Positions 937 to 22,415 of a DNA stretch of 36,676 bases are shown piece by piece; the stretch's first letter is position 1; the number at the start of each line of letters is the position of its first letter. This DNA comes from a virus, in the IMG/VR virus record IMGVR_UViG_3300006793_000106, positions 1 to 36,676 of that record; one strand, 5' to 3'. The notes under the pieces are model-generated. The model was not told where the DNA came from, ran no database searches, and saw nothing but the letters and a program-made list of their open reading frames with translations. Made by a program: the position numbers and the translations under genes.

Positions 937-1170
937 ATGGCAAAGTATAATCAGAAACCGAAACAACCAAGTACAAATAACTACGTAGATGGGTTGATGA
1001 TACGAGACGGAAGACTTATCAATCTGCGTCCTCCAGGGGTATCAGGAATAGAGCAAGCTTCTATGTATAGAAAAGAAATGAAAAAGCAATATAAGATTGA
1101 CACGATTGCTGATGGCATTGAAAGAGCGAAGATGAGAATGGATGGAGATAGAAATATATACGAGTGGTAA
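937..1170 (+). CDS. Small hypothetical protein
   Basis: A 77-residue basic protein with no recognised domain, signal peptide or membrane segment. The first 17 residues are polar and rich in Lys, Gln and Asn. The middle (about 18-42) reads like a short folded region (MIRDGRLINLRPPGVSGIEQ), and the C-terminal third is charged and probably helical. The start at 937 is chosen because a promoter-like box with an inverted repeat ends nine bases upstream; the out-of-frame ATG at 932 leads nowhere. A hairpin followed by a T-run lies 28 bases after the stop, so it is probably a monocistronic unit. It is the first rightward gene after the divergent region, a position often taken by regulators or early host-takeover proteins, but nothing in the sequence decides this. 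Confidence 0.7.
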   Translation: MAKYNQKPKQPSTNNYVDGLMIRDGRLINLRPPGVSGIEQASMYRKEMKKQYKIDTIADGIERAKMRMDGDRNIYEW

Positions 1171-1197: not shown

Positions 1198-1232
1198 AAA
1201 AAAGGGGATAGCATCAGTTATTCCTTTTTTTT
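1198..1232 (+). terminator. Intrinsic terminator
   Basis: AAAAAAGG (1198-1205) pairs with CCTTTTTT (1223-1230), extended inward by two G-T pairs, and is followed by more T. The A-run on the left side means it could also stop leftward transcription. Just upstream (1179-1194) are four TTTG units in tandem. Confidence 0.6.
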
Positions 1233-1332
1233 ATGTCGATTAATTAATAATTATGTTATCTTTATGCCGATATTATGTCGATTTTAAAAACGTAACTATT
1301 TGATTTTTAATACTTATGTCGATTATGTCGAT
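1233..1332. repeat. Five ATGYCGAT repeats upstream of the SET gene
   Basis: ATGTCGAT occurs at 1233-1240, 1275-1282, 1316-1323 and 1325-1332, with the variant ATGCCGAT at 1264-1271. Start-to-start distances are 31, 11, 41 and 9 bases, close to whole numbers of DNA turns. All are in the same orientation and none is inside a gene. This looks like an array of binding sites for one protein facing one side of the helix: an operator, an activator array or replication iterons. The sequence does not say which. Confidence 0.7.
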
Positions 1333-1407: not shown

Positions 1408-1794
1408 ATGACATACAATAAAATAGAATTTTTAGAAATGTTAGCAGACTTAGGCTTGACCGAACAAGAGCTTGCGGACATATCCGAGAGTGGAGAAGTA
1501 GTCAAGTTTAAAACCTTAACGGTAAAGAGAAAGAAATCCAAGATACACGGCTACGGAATGTTTGCTCAAGTTGATTTGGAACAAGGGGACATTATAGGAT
1601 TAGCCTCCGTCAATGCAATACATAAAACTTATCTAGGTAGGTATACCAATCACTCACATAATCCTAACATTGATTTTTTATATTTACAGAATTATGATTT
1701 AATAGGCGTGGCCAAGCAACCTATTAAAAAAGGAGAAGAACTGTTAGTAGATTATAGAAATCATATTTTAACCCCACAGTTTTATAAAATATAA
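1408..1794 (+). CDS. SET-domain protein-lysine methyltransferase
   Basis: A 128-residue protein made almost entirely of one SET domain, the fold that transfers methyl groups from S-adenosylmethionine to lysine side chains of proteins. After a helical, acidic N-terminus (1-30) come the family motifs: the AdoMet-binding stretch KSKIHGYGMFA (43-53, with G48-Y49-G50), the pseudoknot motif RYTNHSHNPN (78-87, N81 and H82), and GEELLVDY (109-116) ending in the conserved Tyr116. The cysteines of a post-SET zinc cluster are absent. The size is close to the 119-residue vSET of chlorovirus PBCV-1. The gene lies 36 bases upstream of groEL on the same strand and downstream of the five ATGYCGAT repeats; an AT-rich leader precedes it without a clear TAnnTTTG box. 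The target is unknown: chaperonin, virion proteins and host nucleoid or ribosomal proteins are all possible. Confidence 0.9.
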   Translation: MTYNKIEFLEMLADLGLTEQELADISESGEVVKFKTLTVKRKKSKIHGYGMFAQVDLEQGDIIGLASVNAIHKTYLGRYTNHSHNPNIDFLYLQNYDLIGVAKQPIKKGEELLVDYRNHILTPQFYKI

Positions 1795-1799
1795 TATTG

Positions 1800-1807
1800 T
1801 ATATTTG
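1800..1807 (+). promoter_or_regulatory. Promoter -7 box for groEL
   Basis: TATATTTG is a full match to TAnnTTTG and sits 24 bases before the groEL ATG, right after the SET stop codon. No good -33 TTTG is seen. It would let the chaperonin pair be expressed apart from the SET gene. Confidence 0.5.
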
Positions 1808-1830
1808 CTTTAAATTAAATTAAATCAAAT

Positions 1831-3459
1831 ATGAATCCACCTGTTGGAGGTTACTCCCCTAAAGACCTGAGATTTGGAGAGTCAGGCAGAAACTCATTAA
1901 TAAACGGAATTACTAAAATTGCCAACGCAGTTAAAAGCACATTAGGGCCACGCGGCCATACCGTGTTAATCGAATCTCCTAATCATACTAAAGGAATTAC
2001 AATTACTAAAGACGGGGTAACTGTCGCTAAGTCTATTGACTTAATTCATCCTGTAGAAAATTTAGCAGTGCGTATGATGAAAGAAGCAGCTTCTAATACT
2101 GCAACTTCCGCAGGAGACGGAACAACTACTGCAATTGTTTTAACTGAAGCTTTAGTAAAAGCTGGTAATGATTTAATAAAGGATACTCATAATAGAACAG
2201 AGATATTAAGATGTATCACTAAGTCATTACCCGATATAATTAAAAATCTAAAGACTGCTTCCAAGCCAATAACTAAACGAAGATTAAAAGATGTAGCTAT
2301 AATATCAGCTAATGGAGATAAAGACATTGGAACTATAATAGCTAAGACATATAATGAGGTAGGTAAAAATGGAATAGTTACAGTAGAGCGTTCAAAAAGT
2401 AGTTCTACTTATAATGAGACTACACAGGGAATTAAAATAGAAAGAGGATTTAATTCGGATTTATTTATTAATGACCAAAAGAAAGATGAGTGCATAATGG
2501 AAGATGTACATATATTAGTATCGGATGCTCCCGTAGAAAATATATTAAATATTGAGAATATATTAAAACCTATTATTACCGAAAACAAAAGATTGCTTTT
2601 AATTTGCCCTACAAGTGATAATGTATTAAATACATTAGCTGCTAACGTAATGAAAAAGAAACTTAATGTATGTAATATTAATCCTCCACAGTTTGGATAC
2701 AAGCAACACGAGTTAATGCAAGACATAGCTATCTCGGTTAATGCAAAATATTTTTCAGAAAAAACTGGAGATGATTTAAGTTTAATGAACTTTAATGACT
2801 TGGGTCACGCTGCCAAGGTGATAGTTGGTAGAGACTCTACAGTCATTATTAAAGACCCTGAGGTTACAGATGCTGATGTAGAGGAAAGAGTTAAACAACT
2901 CTGGGATGCTCATAAACTTGCATCCACTAAACAAGATAAAGAGTTTATCCTATCTCGAATCGCATCTTTAACTGGGGGTATAGGCGTAATATATGTAGGA
3001 GGTCAGACCGATATAGAACAAAAAGAATTATATGATAGAGTAGATGATGCAGTATGTGCTGTTCGGTCAGCTTTAACCGAAGGGATATTACCTGGAGCTG
3101 GTACCGCTTTGTATAATATTGGAAAGCTATTTACCCGAAGAGCAGAACTCACTACCGAAAATTCCGAAAAAATTGCTGACGCAATTTTAGGAACAGCATT
3201 ACAATCTCCCTTAAAACAAATCCTTGCAAATGCTGGATTAGAAGATAAAGAAGTATATAAAGATATTGACAACCCTAGACACGGCTATGATGTGAAGAAC
3301 GAAACCTATGGAGACTTATTAGAGCTAGGAGTCATAGACCCTTTGAAAGTTACCAAGCACGCTTTACAAAATGCAGTATCGGTAGCTACAACTATATTAA
3401 GTACTAATGCTATTATTACAATGGCCAGAACATACGAAACAGATGAAGCCTCTAAATAA
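1831..3459 (+). CDS. groEL: Phage-encoded GroEL-type chaperonin (Hsp60, group I)
   Basis: A 542-residue group I chaperonin; E. coli GroEL has 548. It would form ring complexes that enclose and fold proteins using ATP. Equatorial ATP-site motifs are intact: TLGPRG (37-42), ITKDGVTVA (58-66, D61 matching E. coli D52), GDGTTTA (95-101, D96 matching D87), RVDDAVCAVRSAL (matching D398) and GVIDPLKVT near the C-terminus (matching D495). The apical domain is present (GIKIERGFNSDLFIN onward), but one of the aromatic substrate-binding residues of E. coli (Y203) is Leu here. The C-terminus ends in a polar tail (TMARTYETDEASK) and has no Gly-Gly-Met repeat. The N-terminus is about nine residues longer than the bacterial one (NPPVGGYSPK). 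The 3' end overlaps the co-chaperonin gene by 17 bases. Its divergence from bacterial GroEL argues for a long-standing phage gene, not recent capture. It probably folds virion proteins such as the MCP. Confidence 0.97.
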   Translation: MNPPVGGYSPKDLRFGESGRNSLINGITKIANAVKSTLGPRGHTVLIESPNHTKGITITKDGVTVAKSIDLIHPVENLAVRMMKEAASNTATSAGDGTTTAIVLTEALVKAGNDLIKDTHNRTEILRCITKSLPDIIKNLKTASKPITKRRLKDVAIISANGDKDIGTIIAKTYNEVGKNGIVTVERSKSSSTYNETTQGIKIERGFNSDLFINDQKKDECIMEDVHILVSDAPVENILNIENILKPIITENKRLLLICPTSDNVLNTLAANVMKKKLNVCNINPPQFGYKQHELMQDIAISVNAKYFSEKTGDDLSLMNFNDLGHAAKVIVGRDSTVIIKDPEVTDADVEERVKQLWDAHKLASTKQDKEFILSRIASLTGGIGVIYVGGQTDIEQKELYDRVDDAVCAVRSALTEGILPGAGTALYNIGKLFTRRAELTTENSEKIADAILGTALQSPLKQILANAGLEDKEVYKDIDNPRHGYDVKNETYGDLLELGVIDPLKVTKHALQNAVSVATTILSTNAIITMARTYETDEASK

Positions 3460-3700
3460 ATATATTGCTATTGATATTATAGACGAAGAGATTACTACCG
3501 AGTCAGGATTAATATTATCTGATAAAGACGCTGATGCTCTTAGGTATAAAAAAGCTAGAGTAGTTGCTCCTGGAACAGAAGTGAATACTTTAAAAAAAGA
3601 TGATGTAATTTATTTTGATAGTAGGTCAGGCTATACTTTATTAATAGACAACTCTCCTTTAACTGTAATTAGTGAGAGAGACGTTGTTGTTGTTTTATAG
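3443..3700 (+). CDS. groES: GroES-type co-chaperonin without roof hairpin
   Basis: An 85-residue co-chaperonin, the lid of the chaperonin cage. The frame is open from 3407, but the start is set at the ATG at 3443 because the protein then begins MKPLNKYIAI, matching the GroES opening (RPLHDRVIV). The mobile loop is ITTESGLILSD with LIL (23-25) in place of the GroES IVL tripeptide that binds GroEL. The barrel continues with ARVVAPG (38-44), LKKDDVIYF (50-58) and ends SERDVVVVL, like GroES SESDILAIV. Between APG and LKKDD about nine residues are missing relative to E. coli GroES; these form the roof beta-hairpin, which T4 gp31 also lacks. Gene order is groEL-groES, the reverse of the usual bacterial operon. 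The 3' end overlaps the convergent winged-helix gene by 32 bases. Confidence 0.88.
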   Translation: MKPLNKYIAIDIIDEEITTESGLILSDKDADALRYKKARVVAPGTEVNTLKKDDVIYFDSRSGYTLLIDNSPLTVISERDVVVVL

Positions 3701-4097
3701 CTTTATTCATTTCTTTAATAAAATTTTTATAAACCTTATCCGTATAAGAAACATTTCTATGAAATATAGGATTATGTTCTGATGAAGGTATCTCATCTCC
3801 GTTTAATTTTTTATATATAGAATTTACTACCCTCTTACCTTTATAAGACAATTCATATAAAGCTTTGTTTTTTCCTACGCGTTTTCTAAATACCTCAATC
3901 CACCCATCCCGTAACAGCCTGTCAAAGCGAGTTACATTCCAGCTTAAAAGTTTATCAAATTCTTTAAACTTATCTTTACTAAAGTAATCTTCGGAATATA
4001 AAAACAGAAGCATATCTAAATCTCCAGTGTTGAGCTTATACTTCATTTTAATGTAGTAGCGTATCACTCGCCAGTATTTTAAATAATTAAATTGCAT
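3669..4097 (-). CDS. Winged-helix protein, possible transcription regulator
   Basis: A 142-residue basic protein and the only leftward gene inside the late region. Residues about 25-90 fit a MarR/PadR-like winged helix: a helical start (LDMLLFLYSEDYFS), a recognition-helix region (WNVTRFDRLLRDGWIEVFRK), then a beta-wing and the typical YELSYKGKRVVNSIY. The C-terminal 45 residues (NPIFHR, YTDKVYKNFIKEMNKAIKQQ) read like a motif I associate with marine Bacteroidota phage proteins. It converges on and overlaps groES by 32 bases. It is divergent from the small gene at 4135 across 37 bases that hold an inverted repeat, the layout of an autoregulated repressor with its operator. No ligand site can be seen. 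The DNA-binding role is inferred from the fold pattern, so a virion role cannot be excluded. Confidence 0.8.
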   Translation of the reverse strand: MQFNYLKYWRVIRYYIKMKYKLNTGDLDMLLFLYSEDYFSKDKFKEFDKLLSWNVTRFDRLLRDGWIEVFRKRVGKNKALYELSYKGKRVVNSIYKKLNGDEIPSSEHNPIFHRNVSYTDKVYKNFIKEMNKAIKQQQRLSH

Positions 4098-4134: not shown

Positions 4135-4284
4135 ATGGCAGATACAGATTATAATTATTTAGAGGAATATAAAAAAAAGGCGGCAAAAAATAAAAAGAAG
4201 ACAAAAGCTCGGAAACCAAGAAAGATATGGGGATTAAAAGGACTAGCTTCTTTTGCCTCTAAATATAAACCAAAGACAAAATAG
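4135..4284 (+). CDS. Tiny Lys-rich protein (49 residues)
   Basis: ATG at 4135, stop at 4282-4284. The protein is very basic: an acidic start (MADTDYNYLEEYKKK), a Lys/Arg-rich middle (residues 13-30) and a short hydrophobic patch (IWGLKGLASFASKYK). It starts four bases after the promoter/operator dyad, so it heads a rightward unit. No domain is recognised. The charge would suit nucleic-acid binding or an internal head protein. Codon use and placement look genuine, but the length leaves some doubt. Confidence 0.65.
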   Translation: MADTDYNYLEEYKKKAAKNKKKTKARKPRKIWGLKGLASFASKYKPKTK

Positions 4285-4313
4285 ACCCTAAAATGAGACA
4301 AGGAAAATATTAG

Positions 4314-4321
4314 TATCTTTG
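4314..4321 (+). promoter_or_regulatory. Promoter -7 box
   Basis: TATCTTTG lies 22 bases before the ATG at 4344, in the gap between two small genes. No -33 TTG is visible at the expected distance. Confidence 0.5.
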
Positions 4322-4343
4322 TCAGATAATAAATATATAAATT

Positions 4344-4508
4344 ATGGCAAAAGATAAAAATTTTATTCAAAAAGTATTCTCCAGCGCAAAGCGTAGAGGA
4401 ACCCTCGGAGATTGCACAGGAAAAAAGTTTGGAAGTAAGTCTTGCCCTAAAGGTTCTAAGAAATATAATTTTGCAAAAACAATGCGAAAAATAAATAAGA
4501 AAAAATAA
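4344..4508 (+). CDS. Tiny basic protein with two cysteines (54 residues)
   Basis: ATG at 4344, stop at 4506-4508. After a short helical start (MAKDKNFIQKVF) the protein reads KRRGTLGDCTGKKFGSKSCPKG (split: KRRGTLGDC, TGKKFGSKSC, PKG) and ends in a Lys-rich tail. C24 and C34 are ten residues apart. The pattern GTxGDCxGxKFG followed by CPxG and a basic AKTxRK tail is one I associate with small unassigned Bacteroidota phage proteins. Function unknown; a structural or DNA-associated role is likely given the charge and the neighbours. Confidence 0.72.
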   Translation: MAKDKNFIQKVFSSAKRRGTLGDCTGKKFGSKSCPKGSKKYNFAKTMRKINKKK

Positions 4509-4533
4509 ATAATTAATAATTAAAATAAATATT

Positions 4534-4740
4534 ATGGCAAAAAAGCAAGGATATAACGCTAGACTAGATGAGTCATTAGGCGGACGACACAGAGGTCATC
4601 ACTCTCAATCTTTAAAAGATAGAAGAGATGAATCTAAAGCAATGTCTAAAAAAGACTATGGACACGCTTACGGAGCAGACCACGGAATGGAGTACAGAAA
4701 AGATGTACACGAGCATTTAGGAAAAATGATTAGAAAATAA
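4534..4740 (+). CDS. Small conserved phage protein, hydrophilic (68 residues)
   Basis: A 68-residue hydrophilic protein rich in His, Lys, Arg and Asp. The opening (YNARLDESLGGRHRG) and the following SLKDRRDESKAM resemble a motif I recall from small marine phage proteins without assigned function. It has no hydrophobic core, so it is probably extended or disordered, perhaps a packaged or assembly-linked peptide. It lies 25 bases after its upstream neighbour and one base before the next gene, inside a run of five tiny genes. Confidence 0.75.
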   Translation: MAKKQGYNARLDESLGGRHRGHHSQSLKDRRDESKAMSKKDYGHAYGADHGMEYRKDVHEHLGKMIRK

Positions 4741-4741
4741 G

Positions 4742-4939
4742 ATGGGAAAACTATTAGTAAAATTAGGCTTAAAATTACAGCAGCTTTGGTGTAAATTTAA
4801 GTGCTGTTGGAATTGGGTAGTTTCAAAACTTTTATTTAATGTAACTAACTGTCCTTATAAAATGTGTGAATGTAAAGAAGATAAACCTTTTGATATGGGC
4901 GAAAACGCTGCGAATCCACAAAATATGGGCGGTATATAA
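4742..4939 (+). CDS. Small cysteine-rich protein (65 residues)
   Basis: The N-terminal half is an amphipathic, Trp- and Cys-containing segment (LWCKFKCCWNWVVSKLLF) and the C-terminal half has CPYKMCECK followed by a polar tail. Six cysteines in 65 residues are unusual for this genome. The arrangement could bind a metal or form disulfides, and the amphipathic part could touch a membrane. The start is one base after the previous stop, suggesting translational coupling. Function unknown. Confidence 0.68.
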   Translation: MGKLLVKLGLKLQQLWCKFKCCWNWVVSKLLFNVTNCPYKMCECKEDKPFDMGENAANPQNMGGI

Positions 4940-4947
4940 ATAATTAA

Positions 4948-5127
4948 ATGAAATTAGACCGAACGAGAATGCCAAGCAGAGGATTGGGAGACTCAATAGA
5001 AAAAATAACAAAAGCTACTGGAATAAAAAAAGCAGTAGAGAAAGTAAGTAAAGCAACAGGAAATGATTGTGGGTGTGGGGAAAGACGCGACACTCTTAAC
5101 AGGATGTTTCCATATAAAAACAATTAA
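4948..5127 (+). CDS. Small GLGD/DCGC-motif phage protein (59 residues)
   Basis: ATG at 4948, stop at 5125-5127. It contains GLGDSIEKITKATGIKKAV (12-30), a helical VEKVSKATG, then NDCGCGERRDTLNRMFPYKN. The combination of GLGDxxxKITKATGI with a terminal CGCxxRxxxLNxxFP resembles a short family I recall from Bacteroidota phages. The two-cysteine motif may hold metal or a disulfide. It directly precedes a virion-type protein, three bases away, and belongs to the same transcription unit. Its function is not known to me. Confidence 0.78.
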   Translation: MKLDRTRMPSRGLGDSIEKITKATGIKKAVEKVSKATGNDCGCGERRDTLNRMFPYKNN

Positions 5128-19043: not shown

Positions 19044-19268
19044 ATGGAAATAAGAAAATTATCAGTAGGGCCTGATTATAAATCAGGTGCTATGCATTAT
19101 TTAGTAGGGCAAGACGTTTTAAATAATAATTATAAAATTCATTTAATTAAATGGGATGAACGGACGCAATTCTACTTTATTTATATAATTCAAGATAATA
19201 AAATAGTTTTATGGAAATCTTTTTCGGCCACTATGCCTGTTTCTATAGAATATAATATTCACTTTTAA
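19044..19268 (+). CDS. Small hypothetical phage protein before packaging genes
   Basis: A 74-residue protein with strands rich in Ile and aromatic residues (YKIHLIKWDERTQFYFIYII, LWKSFSATMPVSIEYNIHF) around a GAMHYLVGQDVL segment. I recall similar short proteins next to the following gene type in Bacteroidota phages, without known function. Its stop overlaps the next ATG (TAATG), so the two are probably co-translated and may act together. Confidence 0.75.
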   Translation: MEIRKLSVGPDYKSGAMHYLVGQDVLNNNYKIHLIKWDERTQFYFIYIIQDNKIVLWKSFSATMPVSIEYNIHF

Positions 19269-19831
19269 TGCAAGCCTTATTTGATTTTATTGTTAGACCT
19301 AAAGACAATAAAAGGTATAACAATACAAAAAATATTTCGGATGTAGAGATTATTACAAGCACATCTAAAGAAGACCATAAGTTTTCTAATCGTGAAGCTA
19401 TTGTAATAAATACTCCGCGCGGATATAAAGGTAAAATAAAAAAAGGTGATACCTTATTAGTTCATCATAATGTATTTAAGTTTTATTATGATATGAAAGG
19501 ACGAGAAAGGAGTGGTAGGAGTTTTTTAAAAGACAATGTGTTTTTTGTAGACCCTGAGCAGTTTTTTTTATATAAACAAAATGGAAAGTGGCACTCACAC
19601 CATAAGTATTGTTTTGTAAAACCAATTCGCACTGAAGAGTCTATAATATATAAAAACACTCCGTATGAGCCGTTAGTAGGAATAATGAAATATGTTAATG
19701 AGGAACTAAAAAATTTTGGCGTAAAGGTGGGAGATAAAGTCAGCTATATGCCAGATACTGAGTATGAGTTTATTGTGGACGGAGAAAAGCTTTATAGAAT
19801 TATGTCTCAAAGCATTACAGCGTTAGTGTAA
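19268..19831 (+). CDS. Beta-barrel protein with weak GroES-like pattern
   Basis: A 187-residue, probably beta-rich protein. The order LFDFIVRPKDNKRY (4-17), REAIVINTPRGYKGKIKKGD, then TLLVHHNVFKFYYDMKGR and, near the end, VGDKVSYMPDTEYEFIVDGEKLYRI, echoes GroES-type barrels (VLVKP, a VxxVG strand, VKxGDxVxF, a strand with IDGE). The typical mobile loop is not evident. It resembles proteins found upstream of terminase genes in other Bacteroidota phages, whose role I do not know. If the fold is right, the phage would hold two co-chaperonin-like proteins; this is an inference that needs a structure prediction. It overlaps the following small gene at TAATG. Confidence 0.72.
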   Translation: MQALFDFIVRPKDNKRYNNTKNISDVEIITSTSKEDHKFSNREAIVINTPRGYKGKIKKGDTLLVHHNVFKFYYDMKGRERSGRSFLKDNVFFVDPEQFFLYKQNGKWHSHHKYCFVKPIRTEESIIYKNTPYEPLVGIMKYVNEELKNFGVKVGDKVSYMPDTEYEFIVDGEKLYRIMSQSITALV

Positions 19832-19965: not shown

Positions 19966-20191
19966 AGAGTTAATTAAAGTAGCTCAAGAAAATATAATTA
20001 AACACGACCCTGAAGATGACTTATCAGCAGACAGATTAAAAAACGCAGCAGCAACAAAAAAACTAGCAGTATTTGATGCATTTGAAATTCTGAATAGAAT
20101 TGAAAGTGAAAAAGAAAACATTGAATTAGCAGAAAAAGGATTTGTAAAAACTGATACTAAACAAGGGTTTGCCGAAAGAAAGTCAAAATAA
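19910..20191 (+). CDS. Small helical protein, candidate terminase small subunit
   Basis: A 93-residue helical protein placed directly before terL, whose start overlaps its end by 23 bases. Residues 8-30 (KIIAAGEKAVKELIKVAQEN) and 38-75 (LSADRLKNAAATKKLAVFDAFEILNRIE, split LSADRLKNAAATKK and LAVFDAFEILNRIE) are helices with a well-conserved look, matching a short family I recall in front of Bacteroidota phage terminases. A small-terminase role is suggested by position and size only; no helix-turn-helix is evident. Confidence 0.75.
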   Translation: MDSKNIKLKIIAAGEKAVKELIKVAQENIIKHDPEDDLSADRLKNAAATKKLAVFDAFEILNRIESEKENIELAEKGFVKTDTKQGFAERKSK

Positions 20192-22415
20192 ATTATATAC
20201 TGTATTAACAAATATAGTACCTAAAAATGTTCTAAGCAAAAAAAATAAAGCTAGGAGCTGGCTTTATGGATATAATGAAAAGTACGACATTATTATTATT
20301 TCTAAGACGGGGCAAATTGGAGAAATTATTAGCATAAGTGGTTTAGATATTGCACTTCCTTTGTATTCTTCAAATGGTCGTAAACGACCAAAAAACAAAT
20401 CAGAGCAATTTTGGGTAAGACAAGATTACCCTAAACCTTTAGCAAAACTTCCTAGTATATTTTTTTGGAACGAGATGCCCACTTCTTTTAAAAATTTATG
20501 GATTGATTATATTGAAGAAGAATTTGAACGCAGAGAAAAAGGGCACTGGTTTTGGAATAATGGAGAACCTACCTATATAACAGGGTCTCATTATATGTAT
20601 TTGCAATGGACTAAAATTGATGTTGGATATCCTGATTTTAGAGAAGCTAATAGATTATTTTATATTTATTGGGAAGCGTGTAAAGCTGATAAACGAAGTT
20701 TTGGAATTTGTTATTTAAAAATTAGGCGTTCTGGATTTTCTTTTATGGGGTCAGAAGAGTGTGCAAATATTGCAACTATTTCTAAAGATTCTCGTATAGG
20801 TATTTTATCTAAAACAGGAGCTGATGCTAAAAAAATGTTTACCGATAAAGTAGTTCCTATTACTAATAATTACCCTTTCTTTTTTAAACCTATTCAAGAT
20901 GGGATGGATAAACCTAAAACTGAATTAGCGTTTAGAGTTCCAGCTTCTAAGATTACTAAAAAAAATATGCACCTCCAAGATGAGTTTGAAATGGATGGAC
21001 TAGACACTACAATTGACTGGAAAAATACTGATGACAATTCTTATGATGGAGAAAAATTATTATTATTAGTACACGATGAAAGTGGAAAATGGATTAAACC
21101 TAATGATATTTTAAATAACTGGAGAGTAACCAAAACCTGTTTAAGATTGGGAAGTAAAATAATTGGAAAATGTATGATGGGCTCCACTTCAAATGCTTTA
21201 AGTAAAGGAGGAAGTAGTTTTAAAAAATTATATGAAGACTCTGATATTACAAATAGAAATGCAAATGGTCAAACAAAAAGTGGCTTATATAGTTTGTTTA
21301 TACCAATGGAATGGAATATGGAAGGTTTTATAGATAAATATGGGATGCCAGTTTTAGAAAAAGTTACAGAACCAGTGTTAGGGATTGATAATGAATACAT
21401 TAAGATAAGTTCGGTTGATTATTGGCAAAACGAAGTCGACTCTATGAAGTTAGACTCCAATGCTTTAAATGAATTTTATAGACAATTTCCCCGTACTGAA
21501 GCTCACGCGTTTAGAGATGAAAGCAATCAGTCTTTATTTAATTTAACTAAAATCTATCAACAGATAGATTATAATGACTCATTGATTACCGAGCAGCATA
21601 TTTCTGTAGGAAATTTTAGATGGAAAGACGGTGTTAAAGATACGGAAGTAATTTTTACTCCTAACCTGAAAGGGAGATTTTATTTAACGTGGATTCCTGA
21701 ATATGGATTACGTAACAGAATTTTATCTAAGAATGGAGTTAAATATCCTGCTAACGAACATATTGGGTCTTTTGGGTGTGACTCTTATGATATTTCAGGA
21801 ACAGTAGGAGGTAAAGGGTCAAATGGAGCATTACACGGAATGACTAAATTCAATATGGATAAAGCTCCAAGCAACTCTTTCTTTTTAGAATACGTAGCTC
21901 GACCTCAGACAGCAGAAATATTTTTTGAAGATGTATTAATGGCGTGTGTATTTTATGGGATGCCATTGCTTTGTGAAAACAATAAGCCGCGTTTATTATA
22001 TCATTTTAAAAACAGAGGATATAGAGGATTTAGTTTAAATCGTCCAGACAAAACATACAACAAATTATCTAAAACCGAAAAAGAATTAGGGGGCATACCT
22101 AATTCAAGCGAAGATGTAAAGCAATCTCACGCAGCTGCAATTGAGTCTCATATTGAAAAATATGTAGGATTAGATTTACAAGGCTCGTTTAGAAGTGCAG
22201 ATGAAATGGGAGATATGCTTTTTAACAGGACATTAGAAGATTGGGCAAAATTTGATATTAATAATAGAACTAAATATGATGCTTCTATTAGTTCGGGATT
22301 AGCTATAATGGCTAACCAAAAACATCTTTACACCCCTGTTAAAAAACAATCAAAAATAAGCATTAACTTTGCAAGATATGCGAATAAAGGAATATACAGT
22401 GAATTATTACAATAA
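20169..22415 (+). CDS. terL: Terminase large subunit (TerL), TTG start
   Basis: A 748-residue packaging motor that pumps DNA into the head and cuts the concatemer. The region YITGSHYMYLQWTKIDVGYPDFR (split: YITGSHYMYLQWT, KIDVGYPDFR; 136-158) is typical of the crAss-like and related TerL group. The ATPase has a deviant Walker A, KIRRSGFSF (184-192), Walker B LLLLVHDE (297-304) and a coupling motif GSTSN (338-342). The nuclease part begins near IGSFGCDSYD (D538 a likely metal ligand) and includes YVARPQTAEIFFED. No ATG exists before about codon 103, which is inside conserved sequence, so the TTG at 20169 is the best start, overlapping the upstream gene by 23 bases. The portal gene follows immediately. 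Confidence 0.92.
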   Translation: MPKESQNKLYTVLTNIVPKNVLSKKNKARSWLYGYNEKYDIIIISKTGQIGEIISISGLDIALPLYSSNGRKRPKNKSEQFWVRQDYPKPLAKLPSIFFWNEMPTSFKNLWIDYIEEEFERREKGHWFWNNGEPTYITGSHYMYLQWTKIDVGYPDFREANRLFYIYWEACKADKRSFGICYLKIRRSGFSFMGSEECANIATISKDSRIGILSKTGADAKKMFTDKVVPITNNYPFFFKPIQDGMDKPKTELAFRVPASKITKKNMHLQDEFEMDGLDTTIDWKNTDDNSYDGEKLLLLVHDESGKWIKPNDILNNWRVTKTCLRLGSKIIGKCMMGSTSNALSKGGSSFKKLYEDSDITNRNANGQTKSGLYSLFIPMEWNMEGFIDKYGMPVLEKVTEPVLGIDNEYIKISSVDYWQNEVDSMKLDSNALNEFYRQFPRTEAHAFRDESNQSLFNLTKIYQQIDYNDSLITEQHISVGNFRWKDGVKDTEVIFTPNLKGRFYLTWIPEYGLRNRILSKNGVKYPANEHIGSFGCDSYDISGTVGGKGSNGALHGMTKFNMDKAPSNSFFLEYVARPQTAEIFFEDVLMACVFYGMPLLCENNKPRLLYHFKNRGYRGFSLNRPDKTYNKLSKTEKELGGIPNSSEDVKQSHAAAIESHIEKYVGLDLQGSFRSADEMGDMLFNRTLEDWAKFDINNRTKYDASISSGLAIMANQKHLYTPVKKQSKISINFARYANKGIYSELLQ

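Follow-up and report, generated by a model that had tools for sequence, protein, structure and literature searches.

Protein lysine methylation by SET-domain enzymes has mostly been studied on eukaryotic chromatin. The classical viral SET protein is vSET of PBCV-1, a virion-packaged enzyme whose target is H3K27 of the host's histones (PMC7019647). groEL was reported earlier in phi38:1-related marine Bacteroidetes phages (PMC5332604), and the core proteins listed for the Calle/phi38:1 family include Cpn10 (PMC8776804). The DNA analysed here, referred to as the window, spans the 36,676 b of an IMG/VR virus record and carries chaperonin genes together with a single SET gene. Its terminase large subunit (TerL) is 72.7% identical to that of Manatee Spring podovirus MW202828 and about 48.5–49% identical to those of the Flavobacterium phages 'elemo', and Cellulophaga phages match too; the window phage is a marine, podovirus-like bacteriophage of the Cellulophaga phi38:1/Flavobacterium elemo kind, a group that infects bacteria. 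The features of the window considered below are the following.

937–1170 (+), conserved small protein of 77 aa, no family; in relatives it marks where the chaperonin cassette ends on the left
1232–1332 (+), leader with four TATGTCGAT repeats (at 1232, 1274, 1315 and 1324), upstream of SET
1408–1794 (+), predicted SET-domain protein lysine methyltransferase, 128 aa (PF00856, phrog_34170, AlphaFold)
1796–1807 (+), promoter-like element of groEL, ATTGTATATTTG region (alignment A3 and motif scan; presumed activity)
1831–3459 (+), GroEL, group I chaperonin, 542 aa (PF00118, 205 bits; phrog_5725, 439 bits)
3443–3700 (+), GroES, 85 aa (PF00166, Cpn10, 39.3 bits against a cut-off of 21.1; phrog_3188)
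3672–4097 (−), putative winged-helix-type transcription regulator, convergent with groES
4135–5124 (+), five tiny basic proteins, pI 8.8–10.6, two of them 28–31% lysine; candidate substrates
19268–19831 (+), GroES2, second co-chaperonin, 187 aa (phrog_13932, co-chaperonin GroES, 86.6 bits)
20169–22415 (+), terminase large subunit, terL (phrog_6681, 570 bits), the reference for the GroES2-SET-terL arrangement

A preliminary description of this DNA had placed an intact SET gene directly ahead of an intact groEL–groES pair, and this was borne out. The SET ORF contains the motifs GYGMF (residues 48–52), NHSHNPN (81–87) and GEELLVDY (109–116), lies 36 nt before groEL on the same strand, and is followed by groEL and groES, all three in (+) orientation. 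By Pfam each of the three genes scores above the curated cut-off, and PHROGs concurs for groEL and groES. Beyond that description, the window holds the second co-chaperonin gene, SET is separated from groEL by the promoter-like TTGTATATTTG element of groEL itself, and the SET gene is absent from close relatives of the window phage.

The SET protein consists of an N-terminal helical preamble (about residues 1–30) and a minimal SET domain. In profile searches it scored 41.5 bits with PF00856 (cut-off 22.4) and 64.8 bits with phrog_34170, and 22.9 bits with NF043024 (LegAS4/RomA), far under the curated cut-off of 550 bits. Its AlphaFold model, built with 28 homologues, reached a pLDDT of 88.7 and had vSET (3kma) as its top PDB match (E 4.8e-7, TM 0.65 by target length, 24% identity), followed by MLL1, EZH2, SETD8, ASH1L and LegAS4; there were 276 PDB matches at E ≤ 0.001, and those listed are SET proteins or complexes containing one. 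In the alignment of the 28 homologues, which spans identities down to 34%, S44, G48, G50, F52, G64, T74, G77, R78, Y79, N81, H82, N87, F90, E111, Y116 and H119 are invariant, and these include all the AdoMet-pocket and catalytic-Tyr columns (G48, G50, R78, Y79, N81, H82, N87, E111 and Y116). Values of dN/dS were 0.026/0.229 between the window and its relative L003, and 0.058/0.381 and 0.056/0.241 within another clade, giving ratios of about 0.12–0.23; judged by these substitution rates, the gene is under purifying selection. As 28 homologues align, the fold matches vSET and dN lies far below dS in the window–L003 comparison, the SET observation is not a matter of chance. The invariant motifs together with the low dN suggest that the product is a working enzyme under selection, apparently a minimal protein lysine methyltransferase, as far as sequence and model allow.

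In GroEL, the PF00118 (Cpn60_TCP1) match covers residues 30–531 and the PHROGs chaperonin groEL match has an E-value of 3.9e-131, while the score with the equivalog TIGR02348 (440.9 bits) does not reach the cut-off of 582.1; by these profiles the window GroEL is of a diverged, phage type. The start of groES overlaps the 3' end of groEL by 17 nt. A motif scan located TATATTTG at 1800–1807, corresponding to the Bacteroidetes −7 type TAnnTTTG, and alignment A3 placed the promoter-like element directly before groEL also in relatives without SET. Relatives without SET likewise keep the TATGTCGAT leader ahead of groEL, and it may have a regulatory role. The four repeats could be an operator for the winged-helix-type regulator encoded beside groES, which matches phrog_17028 (unknown function, 54.6 bits) and phrog_12817 (transcriptional regulator, 27.2 bits). 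In other relatives SET sits between groES and the gene for this regulator.

The window phage thus has groEL and two different co-chaperonin genes. The GroES2 model (pLDDT 81.3) found its best PDB match, over 210 columns, in 7ekq chain R, a 194-residue chain of the Chlamydomonas ClpP complex which spans the whole length of GroES2 and which we take to be a tandem Cpn20-type co-chaperonin; many single Cpn10 chains, T4 gp31 among them, came next. With Pfam Cpn10 it scored 15.5 bits, under the cut-off of 21.1, and the predicted fold is a tandem double-Cpn10. The counterpart of GroES2 is annotated as cpn10 in elemo and Calle phages, and a GroES2 match was present in 46 of 46 larger records, many of which had been chosen via GroES2 or its neighbours.

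The placement of SET was followed by homologue searches and gene maps in phages with homologous terL, portal and major capsid protein (MCP) genes, using the best 80 of 343 tblastn-confirmed loci of the SET family; most of the records compared are fragments. Six placements were distinguished. The commonest home of SET (placement A) is beside GroES2 just upstream of terL, either with SET first and GroES2 second (L120–L128) or with GroES2 first and SET following it, in some cases after an intervening 2OG-Fe(II)-like enzyme (L129–L161, L181); ORF overlaps of 1–14 nt are frequent here. In placement B, SET lies on the opposite strand in the interval between groES and the winged-helix-type (wHTH) gene (L037/L097, L051/L088, L090, L092, L094–L101, L119), in placement C between groEL and groES (L102), and in placement D upstream of groEL (the window and L086). 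Two placements fall outside the chaperonin slots: E, next to an amidase gene and some 3.8 kb away from GroES2 (L103), and F, in a 67-kb phage where SET occupies a replication-type region and groEL and GroES2 lie elsewhere (L087/G002). In the window GroES2 has no adjoining SET; in related phages GroES2 is the commonest neighbour of SET.

Conservation of the order SET-groEL-groES in related phages, which the preliminary description had led one to expect, was not found. This order was seen only in the phage of the window and a 94%-identical relative (L003/L086), and a conserved operon was rejected since a single lineage showed it and since the promoter-like element of groEL is retained between SET and groEL. 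SET was not present in the eight nearest groEL relatives (L006–L013, 78–80% GroEL identity), in which the g937–groEL gap measures 288–305 nt as against 664 nt with SET. Among the 80 groEL loci closest to that of the window, the window's phage was one of only a few with SET near groEL, and seven of 50 mostly groEL-selected records had any SET at all, the other 43 having none. The alignment shows SET as a gene-sized insertion between the conserved TATGTCGAT leader and the promoter-like element of groEL; gap lengths and alignment A3 were used here, as the exact empty-site junctions are ambiguous by pairwise alignment in this AT-rich DNA.

The same intervals accommodate other genes. Both the g937–groEL and the groEL–groES intervals hold many unrelated ones, such as HNH-like genes and genes for small membrane proteins. 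The groEL–groES interval is an insertion hotspot, with an HNH-endonuclease-like gene in L047, L049, L050, L055, L059, L066 and L069 (weak Pfam matches, checked in L047). Genes for 2OG-Fe(II)-like enzymes, for a halogenase and for an amidase occur in the slot between GroES2 and w19910. No ORF-sized cargo other than SET was found in the groES–wHTH slot in about 80 loci. Proteins resembling 2OG-Fe(II) oxygenases (PF13640/DUF6445, mostly under cut-off) are encoded right after GroES2 in many relatives, for example at L139:4262–4726, L186:4561–5124 and L211:4561–5136 and in L225, and 11 of 13 PF13640 matches in the 46 records lie just after GroES2. At L259:1065–2120 there is a tryptophan-halogenase gene (PF04820, 134.7 bits) one gene off GroES2, plus a 2OG-like gene, and at L014:2954–4130 a 2OG-Fe(II) oxygenase (50.6 bits) and then a sulfotransferase (67.5 bits) directly follow groEL.

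In the SET tree every placement forms its own clade or sub-clade, with supports of 94/92 for D with F, 100/99 for B with C nested, and 90/66 for A1 with A2. A portal tree, obtained by a quick method, required at least 11 changes of SET placement or presence, and the SET sequences of the window and of L087/G002 are sisters, whereas the portals of these phages lie apart. Vertical descent of SET with the phage was rejected because the two trees disagree; the mismatch and the number of changes indicate that SET has been gained, lost, moved and exchanged between phages. SET thus behaves, as far as these comparisons reach, as patchy single-gene cargo preferring sites beside chaperonin or co-chaperonin genes. 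A bacterial source was also considered and rejected, the sole genome-contig match lying on a phage-like contig in a metagenome bin (L119).

The background for this preference was taken from the accessory genes of 11 near-complete genomes, of which 13 of 275 (4.7%) lie in five chaperonin slots. Counted conservatively, the independent SET placements amount to five events (A, B/C, D, E and F); three of the five are in chaperonin slots, and given this background P is about 0.001 (0.004 at the upper 95% bound of the background), with the slots partly defined after data had been seen (fixed after GroES2 was found) and the event counts approximate. When D, the placement of the window which prompted the test, is left out, two of four remain (P 0.013; 0.034 at the upper bound). 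A link between SET and the chaperonins beyond the accessory-gene background is therefore probable, and not proven, because the slots take other cargo too. Of the coupled modification-and-folding module proposed in the preliminary description, the statistical association of SET with chaperonin and co-chaperonin genes stands, whereas a fixed SET-groEL linkage does not.

The preliminary description had named the chaperonin, the MCP and a host nucleoid protein as candidate substrates. The search for a substrate compared lysine positions between phages with and without SET. No lysine convincingly tracked the presence of SET in GroEL, GroES, GroES2, w19910 or TerL, nor in the portal protein, g24903, MCP or g27554; one weak column was seen in TerL (position 260, 0.68 with SET against 0.22 without), a position at which the window has N. 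The cluster of tiny basic proteins is directly downstream of the groEL cassette in both SET-carrying and SET-less relatives, so the lysine-rich proteins are not specific to SET. A matching basic cluster is found at L103:6036–9097, with SET near its end. Some of the tiny basic proteins match domains that occur within large phage proteins: phrog_220 (minor head protein and DNA pilot) and DUF6321.

The explanation we tentatively favour, possible though short of probable, is that SET acts late and methylates lysines of proteins that serve phage morphogenesis, these being either clients of the chaperonin or the small, lysine-rich products of the genes just downstream. We infer its activity, timing, substrate and benefit alike: late in infection the enzyme would use AdoMet to methylate lysines on phage proteins, those passing through the chaperonin-assisted assembly pathway. 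Candidate substrates are virion proteins that GroEL would fold together with GroES/GroES2 and, alternatively, the tiny lysine-rich proteins encoded beside the chaperonin cassette. Counted for a virion role are the cupin-SET homologues which lie in virion gene modules before terL in PH1, P26218 and MW202744; in addition, a SET copy of cyanophage P-RSM6 lies directly ahead of genes for a gp25-like protein and a baseplate wedge, neighbours that point to virion work. Against methylation of morphogenesis proteins, SET is dispensable in most of the phage group, no lysine tracks it, the SET of L087/G002 is far from groEL and GroES2, and unrelated cargo occupies the slots. The last of these observations would also fit adjacency without function, the cassette and the GroES2–terL junction being hotspots and SET one cargo among many. 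The gene-sized insertions, the many unrelated genes in the groEL–groES and g937–groEL intervals and the oxygenase-like, halogenase and amidase genes of the GroES2–w19910 slot are all in keeping with this, but the accessory genes of the 11 genomes enter the slots far less often (13/275) than SET (at least 3/5), and the groES–wHTH slot held SET as its sole ORF-sized cargo, so that we regard mere adjacency as rather improbable.

SET might instead methylate the chaperonin components themselves, GroEL, GroES or GroES2, tuning client folding or separating the phage from the host chaperonin. Most placements have it adjoining one of their genes, at GroES2 the ORFs overlap, and phage GroEL has ten near-invariant lysines; yet none of the lysines in the three proteins follows SET presence, the chaperonins occur without SET in most phages of the group, and L087/G002 keeps SET apart from its groEL and GroES2, which makes this reading unlikely. 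A host substrate (a nucleoid, ribosomal or transcription protein), with SET as a takeover or counter-defence gene riding the cargo slots, is unlikely as well. In its favour, gain and loss of SET are patchy, vSET, the nearest solved structure, acts on a host histone (PMC7019647), and the L087 SET is near replication genes, but SET recurs with late morphogenesis genes and not with early genes, and the cupin-SET fusions belong to virion modules. A wider reading, which we consider quite doubtful, would see a chaperonin-coupled protein-modification system, in which interchangeable residue-modifying enzymes encoded beside chaperonin genes would act on the chaperonin or on virion clients during assembly; equally doubtful is its proposed set of enzymes beside groEL, groES and GroES2, which would comprise SET, 2OG-Fe(II)-like oxygenases and occasionally a flavin halogenase or a sulfotransferase.

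A phage SET family tied statistically to chaperonins and virion genes would offer a tractable case for the roles of SET proteins in bacterial viruses. It would bear on the reason for complete chaperonin systems in some phages and on their possible joint action with covalent modification of virion proteins, and the recurrent placement of SET hints at chemical modification of proteins by phages during particle assembly. The preliminary description had put forward the combination of SET and chaperonin in a phage as one not known to be described; phage SET genes as such are already present in database annotations, while for their association with chaperonins no relevant paper was found in the open-access literature searched.

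Compared with known systems, vSET (PBCV-1 A612L, PDB 3kma/1n3j) is likewise viral, has a minimal SET domain of similar size and is the top fold match, but PBCV-1 infects a eukaryotic alga and its enzyme targets histone H3, whereas the window SET belongs to a phage of bacteria and, unlike vSET, has an N-terminal helical preamble. LegAS4/RomA of Legionella (PDB 5czy/8swi) is a prokaryote-associated SET domain with a matching fold, but a secreted effector that targets eukaryotic hosts. The phi38:1/Calle and elemo phages share with the window a group I GroEL plus the family-core Cpn10 (PMC8776804), and a homology search gave no SET homologue from these isolates. The cupin-SET fusions of Pseudoalteromonas phage PH1, Rhodoferax phage P26218 and Caudoviricetes MW202744 (phrog_34170) contain a homologous SET (28–35% identity) with the same N-terminal preamble, near terL in virion modules of podovirus-like phages, and differ in an extra N-terminal cupin-like domain; GroEL was not found in the fusion-type records searched, mostly fragments. 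Cupin-SET loci lie in the virion module before terL at L105:4521–5396, L106:5632–6390, L107:5554–6393 and L108:5548–6420, and the carriers are phages of several marine and freshwater bacteria in which the product is annotated as hypothetical or tail-fiber-like. The standalone SET proteins at GroES2/terL in IMG/VR marine phage contigs (L120–L161, L181) are 34–43% identical to the window SET, and terL, portal and MCP assign their phages to the same group, but they are encoded beside the predicted double-domain co-chaperonin and not beside groEL, some of them separated from it by a 2OG-Fe(II)-like enzyme.
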